Below are positions 2,584-25,091 of a stretch of DNA of 32,172 nt, one piece after another. The stretch is from a virus. The stretch's first letter is position 1; each line of letters begins with the position of its first letter. A program made the position numbers and the translations under genes. Location of the stretch: the IMG/VR virus record IMGVR_UViG_3300012920_000141, positions 1 through 32,172 of that record; one strand, given 5' to 3'. Under the pieces are notes generated by a model. The model was not told where the DNA came from. It made no database searches and was given only the letters and a program-made list of their open reading frames with translations.

Positions 2584-2720
2584 CATAAGGGGTGGGACTC
2601 GAACCCACGACCTCTTCGACCTTATAAGTGGTATATGCATCTACCTCATAAAAGTTAATTACTCTTTTACTTACCCCTATAAGTTAAGCCAAAGCGAGCT
2701 ACCTACTGCTCTACCCTTTT
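2584..2720 (-). tRNA. Interrupted tRNA gene with about 64-base insert in the anticodon loop
   Basis: Read on the minus strand, the ends form a canonical tRNA. Acceptor 2720-2714 (AAAAGGG) pairs with 2591-2585 (CCCTTAT), 6 of 7 bp. TA follows, then a D-arm with GAGC/GCTC stem and the classic loop AGTAGGTA. CTTTG (2694-2690) pairs with CGAAG (2618-2614) as the anticodon stem. AGGTC is a standard 5-base variable loop, and GTGGG-TTCGAGT-CCCAC is a perfect T-arm. With a normal 7-base anticodon loop the molecule would be exactly 73 bases, but 71 bases lie between the anticodon stem strands. The insert has its own helix, CTTATA (2683-2678) with TATAAG (2626-2621), and two inner hairpins. The anticodon cannot be assigned and no CCA end is encoded. 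A promoter lies just upstream. Confidence 0.6.
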
Positions 2721-2726
2721 ATTAAT

Positions 2727-2759
2727 AATAATATACGAACCCTAACTAAGTAATCCACA
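2727..2759 (-). promoter_or_regulatory. Minus-strand early-type promoter before the tRNA
   Basis: On the minus strand, TATATTATT (2735-2727) is preceded by GGTTCG and, 20 bases further up, by TGTG (2759-2756), a one-base variant of TTTG. Spacing and the TTCG lead-in equal the + strand promoters at 1055, 3217 and 30090. The expected start is close to 2720, the first base of the tRNA acceptor, so the tRNA transcript would have almost no 5' leader. Confidence 0.5.
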
Positions 2760-16505: not shown

Positions 16506-19500
16506 ATGGAAGAAGAAAACATTGAAATATTCCAGCTAAACGCTGATACTTTTGAAAGAGAAGAATATAAGTCTTCCGATACCAGTTTAATGGTAAAATC
16601 GGACTTAGATACTGATTTTGATAGGGATAGAGATTATATTGAATTTTATGTTTATGATGAAAATAATAATTTAATATACCCTGATAATGTTGTTCCATTA
16701 AATAGTTTTAATGTTAAGGATGGAGATCTTATTTTAAATCCTATAAATGATCTTAAATCTTATGGCTTTGATACTGGAAAATATAATATATTATATAATT
16801 TTTATAGAAAAAGATTAAGTTCAGATCCAGTTATTAAATATTATATTAAAGAAATTTCTTCAGATAGAACAGAAATTAGGTTAGCTAGTAATTCAATAAA
16901 TCCCGCAAATATAACAGCAGGAGTAGAAGCCTTTAATACTTACAGAAATTTATCACCTTATTTTATAGATTTTTATTTAAATTTTGGGCAAAATAATGTT
17001 TTTATAGCTAATAACTTAGTTTTAGATACTTCAAACGCAGGAGATGCTACTGTATTAATTAAATTATATGAACCACTCCCTTCAGAATATGATATTAAAA
17101 GCCAGTGTTGGGTTGTAGAACAATTAGCTAATCCACAATTATACCAAGTAAATTTTCCATTTGTACCCCAAATAATAGATGATAGAAATTTTATATCAGG
17201 TCCTAATTTTAATTTAGATGTTAAAAATGAAAGTGGAAAGGCGGGGCAATTATTTTCTTCAAATGAATTACTAAACTCAGATCTTACTAGTTCCGCTAGT
17301 CAACTTAAAAGTTTACTTAGTCAAAAAGAAATTAACATTAACATTAATTATGAAAATTTTGATGAATTTATTAATTTTAGTTCAGCTAAAACTCGTTTAG
17401 AAAATTTTTATTATAAGGTAGGTTTAATTGAATCTGCTAGTAAGCAAATAACTACAAATCTAAATCAAATTACTAGTGCTACTACTTCGTCTTTTGCATT
17501 TAGTTCAAGTAAAGCAACTCATGAAGATACTATTAATAATATTATAAATAATTTTGATGATTATGAATATTTCCTCTACTATGATAGTGGATCTTTAAAA
17601 TCTTATCCTAAATCAAATTCAACACCACCTTATAAATTACTTCCTACAGGTAGTGCAACAGTATTAAATTGGCTAGGTAGTGCTGATCCTAATTCTCCAT
17701 ATTTTGGAGGTTTAGCTTTATCAGCTTCAAATTATGATCAATCTAATCAGGATTGGTTGCATTGGGCTATACCAGAATATTTAAGAAGTGACCCAGAAAA
17801 TGCCAGATATGAATTATTCATTGATATGGTGGGACAGCATTATGATAATATATGGACTTATACTAAAGATATTACACAAAAATATAATGCAGATAATAGA
17901 ATAGACTTTGGGCTTTCTAAAGATATAGTAGCTCAAGCTATTAGAGACTTTGGTATTAGATTATATTCAAATAATTTTAATACTGATGAACTTTATACGG
18001 CATTTTTAGGGTTAACCCCCTCTGGTAGTTTATTCCCTTTCCCAAATATAACAGGTAGTCTACCAGTAAATACTGGGTCTGAATACGTGGATACTAAAAT
18101 ATCAGCTTCAAATGATGTAATATCATTAGATGATACTAATAAACGTTTATATAAACGAATTTACCATAATATACCTTATTTAATAAAAACTAAAGGTACC
18201 GCAGCTGGGTTAAGAGCATTAATTACCTCTTACGGTATTCCTGATACTATATTAAGAATAAATGAATTTGGGGGTAAAGATAAAAATGAAAATAAAAACT
18301 GGGATTATAAACAAAGAGTATTTAATTATGCTTTTGATTCATTATCAACTGCAACTAATTATGTAACATCCTCCTTTAACCCAACCAGTTCATGGGGTGC
18401 TGAATTTGGTGCATTATATCCTTCTCCTCAAACTGTTCAATTTAGATTTAAAACTCCAGGAATACCAACTGGTTCAGGTAATACACCTAGTGGAGATATA
18501 AGATATTCACAATCATTATGGTTAGCAGATAAAAGTAATAATAGCTTTGCAGACATAGGAGCCGCAGTAGTTTTAGAATATACAGGATCGGGATTTGTAA
18601 CAGGTTCTTATTCAGGTTCAGTTGCTAGTCCTTATGATAATTGGGGTACTTTAAAATTCTATCCTAATGTTTCTCTTAATCCCACAGTAACTTGTAGTGT
18701 ATTTGCCCCTTTCTTCAATAAAGATTGGTGGTCAGTACAAATAACATTTACTGGAAGTTCTGCAACTGACGCTACAGCTTCCTTATTTACTGCTAATGAA
18801 ATAGATGGTAAAGTAGGATTTAGTGGATCCGATGTTAAACTAGGATTGGATGATAGAGACTGGACTAGATCAGATTTAGCATCTCTAAATAACCCATCTA
18901 ACAAAACTATTAATTCTAAAGTTTATAAACCATTCTCTGGGTCTTACCAAGAATATAGAATGTTTGCACCTATAATAAGCGAAAGTAAATTTTATGATTA
19001 TACATTAAACCCATATTCTATTGAAGGAAATTCAGTAGGTTCAGCCCCCAATGAATTAATATTTAGAGCGGCTTTAGGTACTCAATTAAACACCGGAAGT
19101 GGTGAAACACAAGTATCAATTCACCCTAAAATAACAGGTTCAGCAGTACAAATTACACAATCTTTTCTTGGAAATACTAGTAATTATTATATAAGAAGAA
19201 GTGGCACAGCATTTAGACCTAATGTAGAAAATATATACCAAGATCAGGTAATAGCAGGTATAAAGAATAGAATAACTGATAAAATTCAAACAAGAACTGC
19301 AATTTTACCCGAAAACCCATCAGGTTCAAACGCAACAACAACTACTTTATCTCCATTAGGAACTATTCAACAGTCATCTTTAGTTAGCTCTAGTTATAGT
19401 CCTAGTGTAGATTATGTGGAAGTGGCATTTTCACCTCAAGACCAAATAAATGATGATATTAATGCACAATTTGGATACTTTAATATAGGAGAGTATATAG

Positions 19501-22500
19501 GAGATCCTAGGTTGAATTTCTCCTCTTCTAGAAGCTATCCTGATTTAAATCAATTAAGGGATGACTATTTTGAAAAATATAAAAGTAATTATAATTTAGT
19601 TGACTTTATTAGATTAATAAAATTCTTTGATAATTCATTATTTAAAATGATTAAGGATTTTACCCCAGCTAGGACAAGTTTAGCTTCAGGGGCAGTTATT
19701 AAACAACACCTTTTAGAAAGAAATAGACAAAGAATAGCTCAGGTTACATCTTCCAATGTTACTTATACTGGGTCTATAAAACCACAATCAAGAAATTATA
19801 GTACAGGTTCAAGTGATTTTAGTCAACCTAATTTTACTAGTGGTTCTTCAATATATAGATTTAGTGGTGGAACGGGAGGTTCATTTGAACAATATAATGG
19901 TTTACAAACATATAATCTTGATATTTTACGTGTTAAAGGTAATACAAACCTTGCTAGTGCATTTACTGTTAATACCTTAAATATACCAGATGGAGGTGAT
20001 GATTTTGATAATTTTGAAGCAACATATAATGGATTTTATGGTACACGACCTATTCTAGTAGGTAGTATGATAGGTACTAATGACGGGGGAGCGTTTTCTG
20101 ATTTTAATTTTTTCATTAATTCAGTTAATGCTGATTTTCCTGTAAAAATTGGGGATACAATTACAGTATTAGGTAGTACTTTAGATACATCTGGTGGAAG
20201 TGGTCAATTAGTACTTACCCTAAGAAGAAGTGATGTAGTAGAACATACTATAGAATCACCTAATAATAGATTTGGTGTTACTCAAAGTTTTAGTGAATCC
20301 ATTGATAATTCCATAGTAAATTATGTTACTAATTCTGGATCTTTTGTAGGAAGTAAAAATGTAATTATCCAAAATCAAGAAGAATTTTATGATGGAGAAT
20401 TTTCAGGTTCATTTATATTATTACCTTATACATACAAAAATCCAGCATGTGCTGATTATCTAAATGTACCTTCAACTCCTATTAGATATAACCCTATTGT
20501 ATTTAGTTTTGAAAATTCCACAGCTGCCCAAGGTACAGTTACTGAAGAAGAATTTGTAGCTAATGATAATAACCCAGTAAGTGGGGATGCATGGATAGCA
20601 AATGAATTAGTATCTAATAATCCACCTCTTTATAAAGTAAAATATATTAAATTATCTAACTTAGATGTTAATGGGGAACCAGTAGGAGATTATTTGGATG
20701 ATTCCGATACTATATCATGGATACCATCTGACGCATCAGTAGCAGATGGAAGTGGAGTTGTGGAATATAAAATAGATGGTGTTCTAACCTTTGCTAATAG
20801 TACATTATTAAGAATTTCACAAACATCAGGTGATAATATAGAACAAACAGTAGGAGGTGTTACTTATTATCCTATTACATCATCAATTGATGCAGGTTCA
20901 GAAAATTGGAGTTTAGATGCAAGAACATCCTATAAAACAACTGTTGCTACTTCCCAATCTAATGATAATACACAACAAGGAAGATTTATAAACCCATCAG
21001 CATTAACACAAACACAATATTTTTGGTTTTATAATGGTACTAATACTGATGCACAAGGATTTTTCAACCCGGGGAACTTTTTTCAAAATTTTTCAAGTAT
21101 ATTAGGTTCCTCTAAATTTTTTACAAATGGGTCTTACAACCCTACTAGAACATCAAACATACCTTGGTTTTTCTCATGTTCCTTTGCCTATAGTGCATCA
21201 GATTTAGGGTCAGGTAATGCTATTACAGCTAGTAACCAATTATACCATTCAGCTTCAAAATATACGGGTGCCGAACTTACAACACAGAATTTTACGATTG
21301 ATTCAACTGATCTTACAACACCTCAATCTGTAATATTTAGACCTTCACCTTTAATAACGGATTTAAATCCAGATCTATTTACAACAACTTATAATCAATT
21401 TGTACCGGGAGATTCTAGTTCAGCGGACAATACTATAGGAGGTCACCCTAAAATAAAAGTAGGTAGTACATCATCTATAGATTTCCACTTCCCTAGTTTA
21501 ACTATAGGAGGAACAAAAAGAACATTACTTCCTCCAATACCAAAAGAAATACCTTTTAGTGGTAGTAGTATAAATTCTTCAAATACATCCTTTACTATTA
21601 CAAGTGATACAATAACTAGTAATTACAATGGTCAGGCTAATGATCCTGATGGTACTAATCATGGTATGTCTTTTGATGGTACCCAGCAAGTAAAAAATAG
21701 TAAAATAGTTTCATTATTTTCATCAGTGTACGGTGATGATATAGCGGGACAATCATTAACTAAGTTGGATTTATACTATGATTTAGAAATATCAGCATCA
21801 GTTCAAAATTATACGGCATCTATTGCAGTTTTCCATTATGCGGATTCGGACCCAACTCAAAATTCGGCTATTTATAAAACTGGAAGTCCAAAGCATAAGG
21901 CAAATAGTAATGGAAGAATAAATGTATCTAATCAACAAAGGAGTATATTATTAACCCCAGCTGGAGCTTCAACTAATGATGTTAATAATGTATTTAGAAT
22001 TGAAGTTGAATCCCCCATTGAAACCTTTGATGTTTTTGTTAATACTTTTTCAGGATATTATAAAGCTCGGGCGAATTACAGCCCAGAAGCAGGAGGTGGT
22101 TCAACTCCTTTCAGGAGATTCCCCAATTCAGGTGAATCATTTCAGGCTAGTTTATCAACTGTTTTTGGAGCATCTAATAATACCCAAGAATTTACAAGTT
22201 CATTTACCCCATCAGGTGATGTGTATCCTACAATAGATGTAGTAGCTCAATTAAGAAGAACTGGTTCAAATACACCAACTGGAGGTTTTATAATAACTCA
22301 AAGTGCTGCTTTAATATCACAATCAATATTTGGTACTAAAACATTTACATTCTCGGATTCCCCTATTACAAGTATATTTAATGCAACCCCAACAGGATCA
22401 GGAAATACTAATACAGGTTCTACTATTAATGAAGCAAATGATATGTATTTTATTGCTTACTCAATGAGTAATTACAATGCCGAGGGAGCTGTAGGTGGTG

Positions 22501-25091
22501 TAAATAATACATTTGAAACAATTTTTACAGAAACTGGAGATACAGGTTCTAAACTTATTTTAGAACAAAGAGCTGAAGGGGTAGCAACTGGAAATGAGTA
22601 TAACCTTACAGCATCATTATTAATAGCTCATGGTAACGAAGATAACGTTAATAGTTTAGGTACAGTATTTAATTTTGGTTCATTTATAGTACCAGAAAGT
22701 GAATCTGTAGCTAGAGCAATTATAACAGGTTCATTTATTTACCCCTATAGAGTTGATGATGTTTTTAGAATGGGATTATCAGTATCTAAATCATTTGGAT
22801 CAGGGTTAAGTATTAATGAAGCTACTATGAGTATATATCCTAGTAGTTCTATTTATGCACCTAGATCTACCCCAGCAGCATATAATAATTTTAACCCTCC
22901 TACAGCTAGTGGATTTATAGTTCCTACTTATTTTGGGGCAAATATTCAACCATTTAATTTAGCTTTAGATTGTCAACCTTTATTGAATAATTATAACGCT
23001 CAAAGAGAAAATACATACTTGATGCAAGTAGATTATAATAATATAACTGGTTCATTATACCCTGTAAACCAGGCACAAATTTTAAATAATACTGCAACTA
23101 AAGCATCAATACCTGATTCTAATTATACTATGCTACGTTCTATTAATCCTAGATATGATGGTAGTAAATCTACAAGTGCTCTTTATAACGTATTTACTGC
23201 TGGAGATAAGGGTACATTAGGTAAAAATCCTACTATAGATTTAAAAAAGGCATTTTTTGGTTACTTTAATGGTATAGATGACCCATATCCTATGGTAAAT
23301 GATAAAATTCAATTAAATGTAAGATATTTAGTAGATGAACAAGGTAATGCTTTACCACCTGCTTTAGAAGGTACTAGTAGGGTTATATTTGAAAGAGTAT
23401 TCCCAATAAAAGGAGATAGTAGAATTGCCATAGAAACAGGAGATAAAGTATTAAAGGAATTAAATGCTCCATATGAAATTGCAGAAATAGGAAATTATTA
23501 TACTCCTATAATGTATACTCAAACATCCTCAAATGGGAATGCTATGGCTATACCATTAACTGGATCTGGAAGGATATCTAGGTTTGATAATGATGATCCT
23601 AATTCCGCGGATGCCTTTTCTTTTACAGCTTTAGGAACGGCTTCTAATGCTCCCTCTGCTGGTGTTACTTCATTTAATTATATAATATCACCTACAGAAC
23701 AAATATCCATAGGAACGGCATTTACTCCAAATTTACTTCCTAAAATATATGGTAATCCCACAACAGGATTCTCACCTGCTGCCGCAGGTACTGGAACTAT
23801 AGTTTTTTCAGGAAGTGCATATGCTGTTAATCAAAAGGATTTAAAAAATGCTCAAACTATAAACCTAACTACTCAATTTGTAACTAGTTACTTATATGAT
23901 GCTGATAGAAGTAGTAATGGTAATGAAGCTACAGTTTTTCTAAAAATGGTTAGTGGTAGTGCTTTTACAAATGAGGGTGGTACACCTGTACCATTTGTAG
24001 TAAAAGATATTAAATTATCAGTTTTAAAATCTAATCAAAAAGTATATAGTTTAGGTTCCGTAATGGGAGAAAAATTTGTAAGATTTATAGGTGTTAAACC
24101 TAGACCAAAAACAAGGAAAAGGCCACAAGGTGGATATGTTTACTCTAATTCACCAGATTTTACTCTAAGAAGAGATAATACAGCTCAAATTCAGTTAAGT
24201 TTTGAAGTAAAGAACTTTATGAGGAATAAGGGGGTATATCAAAGAGATGGAGATATAAGATTTAGAAATCCGGATTTACTTTCACTTATTTGGACTGTAG
24301 AAGCATCATCTGGTAGATATATATTTAAAAACCAAGATCAGATAAGGTTTGAAATGTCAGGTGCCGCTAGGCCTGCTAGACACGGTAATCAACCAGATAC
24401 TGTATTTTTCCCAGATGATCATGTAGGAGTTTATGACCCAACTAAAATAAGTGTTCAAGGTGCTTTAGATCATATATTTGAGGGTGATAATACAGGTAGT
24501 GCTCCATTCTGGGTATATACCGGATCTGCTGGAGGTGGATTAGTCCAAGGAGCTACCAATATATTAGTAATGAGTTCATCTAATGTAAATGAAGCTTATG
24601 GTATGGACTTTTATCAGGGTCAATTGCCTTACACCCCAGGACCATCTGAAATTTTCCCAGGTGGTAAGGAACCTAGTAATACAGCATTTGATCCTATAGT
24701 ATATCCATTACTTATTGAACCTGGAGATGAAATTAGATTTGCTAATAATGAAAATTATACTTATAAAATAACAGAAGTATTTAGCCCAGACCAAAATATA
24801 GAAGGGATAGGTTCTACTGGAAAAGGTAGAATTAAAATAGTTTTAGATAATTTTGTGCCAGAGGATGTTAATAAAAATTTCTTTTTAATAAGAAGAAGAA
24901 TACCTAATGCTAATAGTGTATTTTTACAGGGTACTTTCCCTTATCAAAATACTAATGCATCAGGTTCAACAACTTTAAAAGATGCTCAATCAACCCCTGG
25001 TATACTTTACCCTGATTATCCAACAGTACTTTTAGAAAATAGTGCTTCTGTAATAGTAAATGAATTAGTTAGTAAAGGACTTATAACTTAA
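16506..25091 (+). CDS. Giant baseplate wedge/tail-fibre protein (2861 aa)
   Basis: This is by far the largest gene (8.6 kb). The N-terminal 130 residues (DYIEFYVYDENNNLIYPDN..., then YNILYNFYRKRL, ISSDRTEIRLAS) form a module seen in large virion proteins of marine phages. Residues about 410-620 include NQDWLHWAIPEYLRSDPENARYE and IPYLIKTKGTAAGLRALITSYG; the KGT..G.R.AL pattern resembles P2 tail protein I, the counterpart of T4 gp7. Residues about 630-770 look like a LamG-type sandwich (DWWSVQITFTGSS). The middle is a long run of beta modules with frequent TGS turns, and the C-terminus (about 2150-2861) is another beta-rich block. I infer a gp7-type wedge fused to fibre modules. The frame is intact throughout. 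Confidence 0.7.
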   Translation: MEEENIEIFQLNADTFEREEYKSSDTSLMVKSDLDTDFDRDRDYIEFYVYDENNNLIYPDNVVPLNSFNVKDGDLILNPINDLKSYGFDTGKYNILYNFYRKRLSSDPVIKYYIKEISSDRTEIRLASNSINPANITAGVEAFNTYRNLSPYFIDFYLNFGQNNVFIANNLVLDTSNAGDATVLIKLYEPLPSEYDIKSQCWVVEQLANPQLYQVNFPFVPQIIDDRNFISGPNFNLDVKNESGKAGQLFSSNELLNSDLTSSASQLKSLLSQKEINININYENFDEFINFSSAKTRLENFYYKVGLIESASKQITTNLNQITSATTSSFAFSSSKATHEDTINNIINNFDDYEYFLYYDSGSLKSYPKSNSTPPYKLLPTGSATVLNWLGSADPNSPYFGGLALSASNYDQSNQDWLHWAIPEYLRSDPENARYELFIDMVGQHYDNIWTYTKDITQKYNADNRIDFGLSKDIVAQAIRDFGIRLYSNNFNTDELYTAFLGLTPSGSLFPFPNITGSLPVNTGSEYVDTKISASNDVISLDDTNKRLYKRIYHNIPYLIKTKGTAAGLRALITSYGIPDTILRINEFGGKDKNENKNWDYKQRVFNYAFDSLSTATNYVTSSFNPTSSWGAEFGALYPSPQTVQFRFKTPGIPTGSGNTPSGDIRYSQSLWLADKSNNSFADIGAAVVLEYTGSGFVTGSYSGSVASPYDNWGTLKFYPNVSLNPTVTCSVFAPFFNKDWWSVQITFTGSSATDATASLFTANEIDGKVGFSGSDVKLGLDDRDWTRSDLASLNNPSNKTINSKVYKPFSGSYQEYRMFAPIISESKFYDYTLNPYSIEGNSVGSAPNELIFRAALGTQLNTGSGETQVSIHPKITGSAVQITQSFLGNTSNYYIRRSGTAFRPNVENIYQDQVIAGIKNRITDKIQTRTAILPENPSGSNATTTTLSPLGTIQQSSLVSSSYSPSVDYVEVAFSPQDQINDDINAQFGYFNIGEYIGDPRLNFSSSRSYPDLNQLRDDYFEKYKSNYNLVDFIRLIKFFDNSLFKMIKDFTPARTSLASGAVIKQHLLERNRQRIAQVTSSNVTYTGSIKPQSRNYSTGSSDFSQPNFTSGSSIYRFSGGTGGSFEQYNGLQTYNLDILRVKGNTNLASAFTVNTLNIPDGGDDFDNFEATYNGFYGTRPILVGSMIGTNDGGAFSDFNFFINSVNADFPVKIGDTITVLGSTLDTSGGSGQLVLTLRRSDVVEHTIESPNNRFGVTQSFSESIDNSIVNYVTNSGSFVGSKNVIIQNQEEFYDGEFSGSFILLPYTYKNPACADYLNVPSTPIRYNPIVFSFENSTAAQGTVTEEEFVANDNNPVSGDAWIANELVSNNPPLYKVKYIKLSNLDVNGEPVGDYLDDSDTISWIPSDASVADGSGVVEYKIDGVLTFANSTLLRISQTSGDNIEQTVGGVTYYPITSSIDAGSENWSLDARTSYKTTVATSQSNDNTQQGRFINPSALTQTQYFWFYNGTNTDAQGFFNPGNFFQNFSSILGSSKFFTNGSYNPTRTSNIPWFFSCSFAYSASDLGSGNAITASNQLYHSASKYTGAELTTQNFTIDSTDLTTPQSVIFRPSPLITDLNPDLFTTTYNQFVPGDSSSADNTIGGHPKIKVGSTSSIDFHFPSLTIGGTKRTLLPPIPKEIPFSGSSINSSNTSFTITSDTITSNYNGQANDPDGTNHGMSFDGTQQVKNSKIVSLFSSVYGDDIAGQSLTKLDLYYDLEISASVQNYTASIAVFHYADSDPTQNSAIYKTGSPKHKANSNGRINVSNQQRSILLTPAGASTNDVNNVFRIEVESPIETFDVFVNTFSGYYKARANYSPEAGGGSTPFRRFPNSGESFQASLSTVFGASNNTQEFTSSFTPSGDVYPTIDVVAQLRRTGSNTPTGGFIITQSAALISQSIFGTKTFTFSDSPITSIFNATPTGSGNTNTGSTINEANDMYFIAYSMSNYNAEGAVGGVNNTFETIFTETGDTGSKLILEQRAEGVATGNEYNLTASLLIAHGNEDNVNSLGTVFNFGSFIVPESESVARAIITGSFIYPYRVDDVFRMGLSVSKSFGSGLSINEATMSIYPSSSIYAPRSTPAAYNNFNPPTASGFIVPTYFGANIQPFNLALDCQPLLNNYNAQRENTYLMQVDYNNITGSLYPVNQAQILNNTATKASIPDSNYTMLRSINPRYDGSKSTSALYNVFTAGDKGTLGKNPTIDLKKAFFGYFNGIDDPYPMVNDKIQLNVRYLVDEQGNALPPALEGTSRVIFERVFPIKGDSRIAIETGDKVLKELNAPYEIAEIGNYYTPIMYTQTSSNGNAMAIPLTGSGRISRFDNDDPNSADAFSFTALGTASNAPSAGVTSFNYIISPTEQISIGTAFTPNLLPKIYGNPTTGFSPAAAGTGTIVFSGSAYAVNQKDLKNAQTINLTTQFVTSYLYDADRSSNGNEATVFLKMVSGSAFTNEGGTPVPFVVKDIKLSVLKSNQKVYSLGSVMGEKFVRFIGVKPRPKTRKRPQGGYVYSNSPDFTLRRDNTAQIQLSFEVKNFMRNKGVYQRDGDIRFRNPDLLSLIWTVEASSGRYIFKNQDQIRFEMSGAARPARHGNQPDTVFFPDDHVGVYDPTKISVQGALDHIFEGDNTGSAPFWVYTGSAGGGLVQGATNILVMSSSNVNEAYGMDFYQGQLPYTPGPSEIFPGGKEPSNTAFDPIVYPLLIEPGDEIRFANNENYTYKITEVFSPDQNIEGIGSTGKGRIKIVLDNFVPEDVNKNFFLIRRRIPNANSVFLQGTFPYQNTNASGSTTLKDAQSTPGILYPDYPTVLLENSASVIVNELVSKGLIT

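Follow-up and report, generated by a model that had tools for sequence, protein, structure and literature searches.

A conserved phage tRNA-like RNA with an exchangeable insert in its anticodon arm

Positions 2584 to 2720 on the minus strand of a 32,172-nucleotide stretch of viral DNA (the window) read as a tRNA gene in which 71 bases lie between the strands of the 5-bp anticodon stem, where a tRNA has seven. If 64 of those 71 bases are taken out, 73 nucleotides with a 7-nt loop are left, a count made in an earlier note on this DNA and reproduced here. The locus raises the question of whether the insert is removed or whether the interrupted RNA is itself the working form. ARAGORN run without introns made no call at this element and an Rfam search at the gathering score gave no match to it; with introns allowed, ARAGORN called exactly this place as a Leu(UAA) tRNA with a 62-nt insert. 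The cloverleaf pieces described in the earlier note were each re-located on the minus strand, and their coordinates proved right:

2584-2720, minus strand: whole tRNA-like RNA element, 137 nt, with a 64-nt insert in the anticodon arm
2714-2720, minus strand: acceptor stem, 5' strand AAAAGGG, partner 2585-2591; position 2-71 is A.A
2696-2711, minus strand: D-arm GAGC-AGTAGGTA-GCTC, with AGTAGGTA as the D-loop; D stem 100% paired in the alignment, double-sided changes at three pairs
2688-2694, minus strand: extended anticodon stem, 5' strand CTTTGGC (positions 27-33), pairing with 2614-2620
2684-2687, minus strand: UUAA bulge at anticodon positions 34-37, conserved in the alignment
2621-2683, minus strand: class-a insert module, helix 2 plus two hairpins
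2683-2678 with 2626-2621, continued by 2677-2676 with 2628-2627, minus strand: helix 2
2669-2664 with 2654-2649, minus strand: first inner hairpin of the class-a module
2645-2642 with 2633-2630, minus strand: second inner hairpin (GGTA/TACC) of the class-a module
2614-2620, minus strand: extended anticodon stem, 3' strand GTCGAAG
2613-2609, minus strand: variable loop, 5 nt
2592-2608, minus strand: T-arm GTGGG-TTCGAGT-CCCAC; T loop invariant across the family
2584-2591, minus strand: acceptor 3' strand CCCTTAT and discriminator G (2584); CCA not encoded
2730-2739, minus strand: promoter-like motif TTCGTATATT, 9 nt upstream of the element

In the window six of the seven acceptor pairs form (2720-2714/2591-2585) and T8 is present. 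The core anticodon stem (CTTTG 2694-2690, CGAAG 2618-2614) lies where the earlier note had put it, but its real length is 7 bp rather than 5, as pairs 32-38 and 33-G also form. The start codon that the ORF finder assigns to a minus-strand frame at 2152-2640 falls within the RNA element; translation of this small membrane-like protein probably begins at the ATG at 2559 instead.

Relatives were collected by scanning viral contigs with a 19-base D-arm pattern, which returned 49 records, about half of them plain tRNA-Met(CAU) genes and the remainder the same interrupted element. Their inserts fall into two classes, a (four sequences: the window, L060, L003 and L009) and b (29 sequences). We built a covariance model, R1, from 22 class-b sequences with no class-a sequence in training, and extended the family by further patterns and an R1 search of viral records. 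The family now comprises 43 virus records including the window, each scoring at least 83 bits with R1, and 33 distinct full-length sequences. Although trained on class b only, R1 scores the window element at 90.0 bits (E=6e-20) and finds all four class-a members at 87-91 bits. Every record that was searched whole (25 of 25) holds exactly one full element. The features expected of an RF00005-type tRNA are kept, namely the D-arm, T-arm, acceptor stem, T8, G18G19 and TTC loop, and L064, with a 46-nt insert, even exceeds the Rfam tRNA cut-off (RF00005, 33.7 bits vs 29).

The structure was tested on a MAFFT alignment (A5) of the 33 sequences that was fitted to no structure. In the extended cloverleaf 96.0% of cells are paired, compared to 78.3% in shuffles and 35.9-56.9% with slid partners, and 158 cells are changed on both sides against 46.1 in shuffles, where each shuffle control preserves either column make-up or relatedness, never both together. 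In helices 2-5 (D-arm, T-arm, 7-bp anticodon stem and helix 2) pairing reaches 100% of cells over the 33 sequences. Because the effect is large and the slid-partner controls are low, it is very unlikely that the covariation signal is an artefact. The earlier note had named stems that do not covary and halves that are unrelated in relatives among the observations that would count against it; these two comparisons were run and came out strongly the other way. The R1 score of the window together with the covariation rules out chance folding, and the tRNA-like RNA with its insert forms a conserved RNA family. Fold energy on its own is uninformative (z -1.62 for the window element, about +1 for class-b inserts), so the case rests on covariation.

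A blastn search of an annotated phage collection found no isolate with the element, a model search of five related phage records gave none, and a protein-based scan using the gene at 1627-2151 found no relatives. No Rfam 15 family accounts for the element, no annotated phage was found with it, and literature searches turned up no description. Three matches to the class-b pattern in bacterial genomes were rejected as chance occurrences within unrelated sequence, as were L075 and L076.

The alignment shows how the insert is joined to the tRNA body. Five standard anticodon pairs are followed by pair 32-38, which covaries (G-U in 25 sequences, A-U in seven, C-G in one), pair 33-G (C-G in 32, U-G in one), a 5' bulge UUAA and helix 2, which opens with an invariant C-G pair. 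The 7-pair stem has double-sided changes at five pairs, and the 3' strand of the arm is unbroken, so that on this side the anticodon stem continues into helix 2. The bulge reads UAAA in L051 and L053 and UUAUAA in L022. That G-U pairs are frequent points to RNA as the form under selection.

Across the family 46-77 nt lie between the anticodon stem strands, and the insert modules are of two kinds, unrelated in sequence and placed at the same site. In class a, helix 2 is followed by a hairpin whose 9-nt loop, NNUAAUUAA, is conserved, and by a GUA/UAC hairpin. Class b consists of GGCGC, an optional hairpin that is absent from short forms, UAAUA and the near-invariant strand CGAUCGURAAAAGC; its inner folding is resolved as far as GC/GC and a variable hairpin. 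The fold proposed for the insert in the earlier note, which is the exact minimum-energy fold of L060, holds for helix 2 and the first hairpin, where compensatory changes occur among the four class-a sequences, while its second hairpin is kept without covariation.

The two kinds of module have been exchanged for one another. The window and L060 are identical at 69 of 70 positions over 71 nt of the insert region, yet their flanks are unrelated and the match spans 124 nt only, wholly within the element. Conversely, L022, L038 and L053 share flanking DNA with the window (68-80% identical in aligned stretches) and tRNA halves at 90-97%, but carry class b. The DNA upstream of L060 is in turn 79-81% identical to that of L052 and L056; this match ends at nucleotide 39 (CTTAAC) and resumes only in the 3' half of the element. 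Judged from these alignments, the unit of exchange is the insert, with borders CUUAA-C and G-GU, and ordinary recombination via the conserved halves would suffice to exchange it. The insert core CGATCGTGAAAAGCAA shows 94.5% identity and the UUAA bulge 96.7% (class b; identical within class a), compared to 57.9% for the acceptor, 73.7% for the anticodon stem and 51% for the discriminator. The opposite pattern would be expected if the insert were a disposable intron within a conserved tRNA.

Other features of the tRNA body argue against a decoding tRNA. Of the 33 sequences, 32 have a mismatch at one of the two uppermost acceptor pairs (pair 1-72 is unpaired in 23, and the mismatch falls at 2-71 instead in nine others), and the discriminator is A in 21, G in 11 and T in one. 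All but one of the 33 sequences have C at position 33, and a helix stands where a tRNA has a 7-nt anticodon loop with U33. Among plain tRNA-Met genes that share this D-arm, 12 of 14 also lack pair 1-72, an initiator mark, which makes descent of the element from an initiator tRNA plausible; the element does not have the other initiator features (a CAU anticodon, G-C pairs in the anticodon stem). The anticodon presumed after removal of the insert would be UUA, reading UAA, or UAA in some close relatives. However, TAA is the commonest stop in the element loci, closing 116 of 166 long genes, and since it remains the main stop, the element is no working UAA suppressor.

The window encodes T4-type baseplate proteins and several other element records encode Gp23. 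Baseplate and capsid proteins place Flavobacterium phage vB_FspM_immuto_2-6A (immuto) and Microcystis phage Mel-JY01 closest among isolates, and the capsid protein adds Rhodothermus phage RM378. These relationships support marine T4-like phages of Flavobacteria-type hosts as the carriers, and with them the assumption of the earlier note that this is a phage of bacteria. Downstream of the T4-like baseplate genes the window has a single 2861-aa ORF (16506-25091), whose product we describe as a giant structural or tail-fibre protein of unassigned family. In arrays the element often adjoins tRNA-Gln, -Ala or -Met genes. The gene order in immuto, queC - tRNA array - queD - queE - folE - dpdA, matches that of element loci, and proteins near the element are 33-69% identical to those of immuto; a model search of immuto found no element. 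In the lineage of the window the element lies elsewhere, upstream of the small predicted membrane protein. By this comparison, in one lineage the element is accessory to the array site. The tRNA arrays of L014, L017, L048, L058, L064 and L066 have queC, queD, queE, folE and a DpdA homologue on their flanks, an arrangement shared with Immutovirus that suggests 7-deazaguanine-modified phage DNA in these records.

The earlier note had argued for expression from a promoter directly upstream. A sigma-70 scan upstream of the element finds no promoter; what does stand there, 9 nt upstream, is a motif TTYGTATATT. It occurs six times in the window against 1.04 expected (at 814, 1075, 2730 on the minus strand, 3237, 28376 and 30110), and three of the copies away from the element sit 17-45 bp before genes. 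The same motif precedes the stand-alone element by a few bases in the window, L022, L025, L038, L044, L051 and L053. It is probably a promoter element of the phage and resembles a Bacteroidetes -7 box, and its context supports transcription of the element.

Could the insert be an intron? A tRNA with a short intron outside group I, cut in the anticodon arm and joined by a ligase, would give a 73-nt tRNA with the loop N-C-UUA-A-N. Such a tRNA is suggested by the complete cloverleaf, the classical intron place of the insert, the identical borders of unrelated inserts, the 7-nt loop left after removal and the ARAGORN call with introns. Nevertheless we regard it as unlikely, in view of several observations. 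No insert-less allele appears in viral contigs among the tRNA bodies searched: a 5'-half pattern search returned only interrupted copies, and a variant of the pattern with other bases after CTTAA gave no matches. After splicing, the loop would contain C33 (32 of 33) and its 32-38 pair would be Watson-Crick or wobble; its 'anticodon' varies between UUA and UAA in close relatives and reads UAA, a codon that ends most of the genes here; and the discriminator varies. The single 5' bulge makes no bulge-helix-bulge. No RNA ligase or RtcB was found in the element-bearing phage records, which are fragments and whose hosts may have RtcB, where PF09511, PF09414 and PF01139 gave no match; recovery of T4's own RNA ligase is the positive control for PF09414, whereas PF09511 is without one and uninformative. 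The inserts, at 46-77 nt and with no Rfam group I match at gathering or weak thresholds, are too short for a group I intron, as the earlier note had concluded. The modules could instead be small self-cutting ribozymes, perhaps with host RtcB resealing the halves. The near-invariant unpaired class-b bases (UAAUA, CGAUCGURAAAAGC) do resemble a catalytic or ligand-binding core and theta ribozymes are known beside phage tRNAs (PMC10879173), but no Rfam ribozyme matches even at weak thresholds, and the two classes have no core in common, which would call for two new ribozymes at a single site; we think this quite improbable. Taken as one proposal, that the inserts are new very short tRNA introns or new small ribozymes, of neither group I nor archaeal-type mechanism, swapped at one site, is doubtful in our estimate.

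A role in decoding without splicing, for instance as a UAA suppressor with the UUAA bulge as anticodon, has in its favour that UUA occupies positions 34-36 and that the capsid gene in L048's record carries an in-frame TAA at a codon that is Tyr in relatives. However, three other gp23 genes examined are intact within the matched region, TAA is the commonest stop codon, and a stem of at least 10 bp past position 31 should not fit the decoding site, which together make this role hardly credible. UAA recoding, raised by in-frame TAA codons in Gp23 matches, was rejected: the two in-frame TAA in gp23 of the L064 record are the normal gene end, the capsid genes of L014 and L054 are intact, the single TAA in L048's record is isolated, and TAA is the main stop. 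At that site in L048's record (L079:2958-2960) the frame runs on past the TAA with conserved sequence to the normal end; a sequencing error, a rare allele or readthrough are the alternatives. It is also very improbable that the element regulates the 7-deazaguanine (queuosine-type) pathway, in spite of QueC directly upstream in 16 of 33 loci and QueD, QueE, FolE and a DpdA homologue nearby, as immuto has the same gene order without the element, the element lies elsewhere in the window and other lineages, and 65 kb separate it from queC in the record of L030. The queC neighbourhood is explained by the tRNA array site, which is present in immuto without the element.

We therefore favour, at slightly better than even chances, a phage-encoded non-decoding tRNA-like RNA that works unspliced with the module as its effector, and its role is probably something other than ordinary translation. 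The earlier note had left an intron and a tRNA-like RNA with another function side by side; the second is now the better of the two. The unspliced form is favoured because the insert helix carries on from the anticodon stem by way of pairs 32-38 and 33-G, because an insert-less allele was not found in viral contigs, because a spliced loop would have C33 and not U33 in 32 of 33 sequences, because the acceptor end is mismatched and the discriminator variable, and because RNA ligase or RtcB was not found in element-bearing records. As counterpoints, both modules keep the borders C-UUAA-C and G-G, as introns would, and removal of the insert gives the tRNA-like size and loop described above. In the unspliced RNA the tRNA body would be a scaffold whose fold gives stability, and host RNase P and RNase Z would cut it from a transcript that is often a tRNA array. 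Comparison of the sequences indicates that the anticodon loop has been replaced by the 7-bp stem, the conserved UUAA bulge and a second helix bearing the module; at least two exchangeable modules exist and the module would be the effector, while the mismatched acceptor end would exclude the RNA from normal elongation. Tentatively, we suggest that the module may hold, decoy or block a tRNA-acting host protein such as a tRNA-cutting defence enzyme, and that module swapping could reflect an arms race. A tRNA-acting protein is favoured as target because the body is a faithful tRNA mimic and because tRNA-targeting defence enzymes cut at the anticodon (PMC10264068, PMC12851939), and the arms race is suggested by the interchangeable modules. 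No binding partner conserved near all element copies was seen.

The element stands beside YrlA, tmRNA and T4 rnaC as a tRNA-like RNA with a functional arm. T4 species 1 RNA (rnaC, AF158101 70908-71046) has a similar length (139 nt), is found where a tRNA array of a T4-like phage ends, has no assigned function and has likewise retained a T-arm and acceptor-like ends while its other parts are replaced; it differs in being without a tRNA-type D-arm and without sequence or model similarity to the element, and R1 run over the T4 tRNA region finds ordinary tRNAs only. YrlA (RF02553) shares a tRNA-like core and a functional arm, which in YrlA serves protein binding, but its termini are permuted relative to tRNA, the element scores only 15.4 and 12.7 bits against a cut-off of 69, and no TROVE protein was found in 30 phage records, which are fragments and where the host could supply one. 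tmRNA (RF00023) has similar tRNA-like ends and a long insert and gives a weak match (17.8 bits vs a cut-off of 47), whereas the element has a full D-arm with a stem and is far shorter; ARAGORN called no tmRNA at the element, and by inspection no reading frame is kept across the aligned sequences. Archaeal and eukaryal tRNA introns are also short structured inserts near 37/38, but their bulge-helix-bulge has two 3-nt bulges around a 4-bp helix, unlike the one 4-nt 5' bulge and fully paired 3' strand seen here in a phage with a bacterial-type host. Group I introns of bacterial tRNAs are likewise inserted in the anticodon loop, but have a conserved P3-P9 core and are usually over 200 nt, in contrast to the 46-77 nt, without an Rfam group I match, between the stems here. 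According to a 2014 review, every phage intron known by then lay in a protein gene, although phage tRNA genes are numerous (PMC3984707). Phage tRNAs whose anticodon loops are altered evade host tRNases (PMC10264068); they too are altered in the anticodon arm, although by point changes in decoding tRNAs, whereas in the element the whole loop is replaced.

Huge phages hold other unusual tRNA-like sequences. L108:53-153 (LR756508) is a YrlA-like RNA (43.8 bits, Rfam cut-off 69) beside tRNA genes that reads as a permuted tRNA, with the 3' half ahead of the 5' half. L109:103-229 on the minus strand (LR756511) is a tRNA of 50.6 bits with an insert of ~55 nt, placed in the D-loop by Rfam and in the anticodon loop by ARAGORN. 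L111:101-351 (LR756508) is a tRNA-like cloverleaf with an insert of ~170 nt after CTTTGGTTTAACGG, which has no Rfam group I match at E<0.1.

With a tRNA body and a swappable module in place of the anticodon loop, the element resembles a natural counterpart of the laboratory 'tRNA scaffold'. It would amount to an RNA-based counter-defence if a host factor is blocked or decoyed by the module. Should the insert be an intron, the rule that bacterial tRNA introns are group I would be broken, and an insert that is spliced or self-cutting would be categorically new. Because tRNA-like RNAs that are not tRNAs are kept by selection in phage tRNA arrays, the finding also bears on the long-open role of the T4 stable RNAs rnaC and rnaD.
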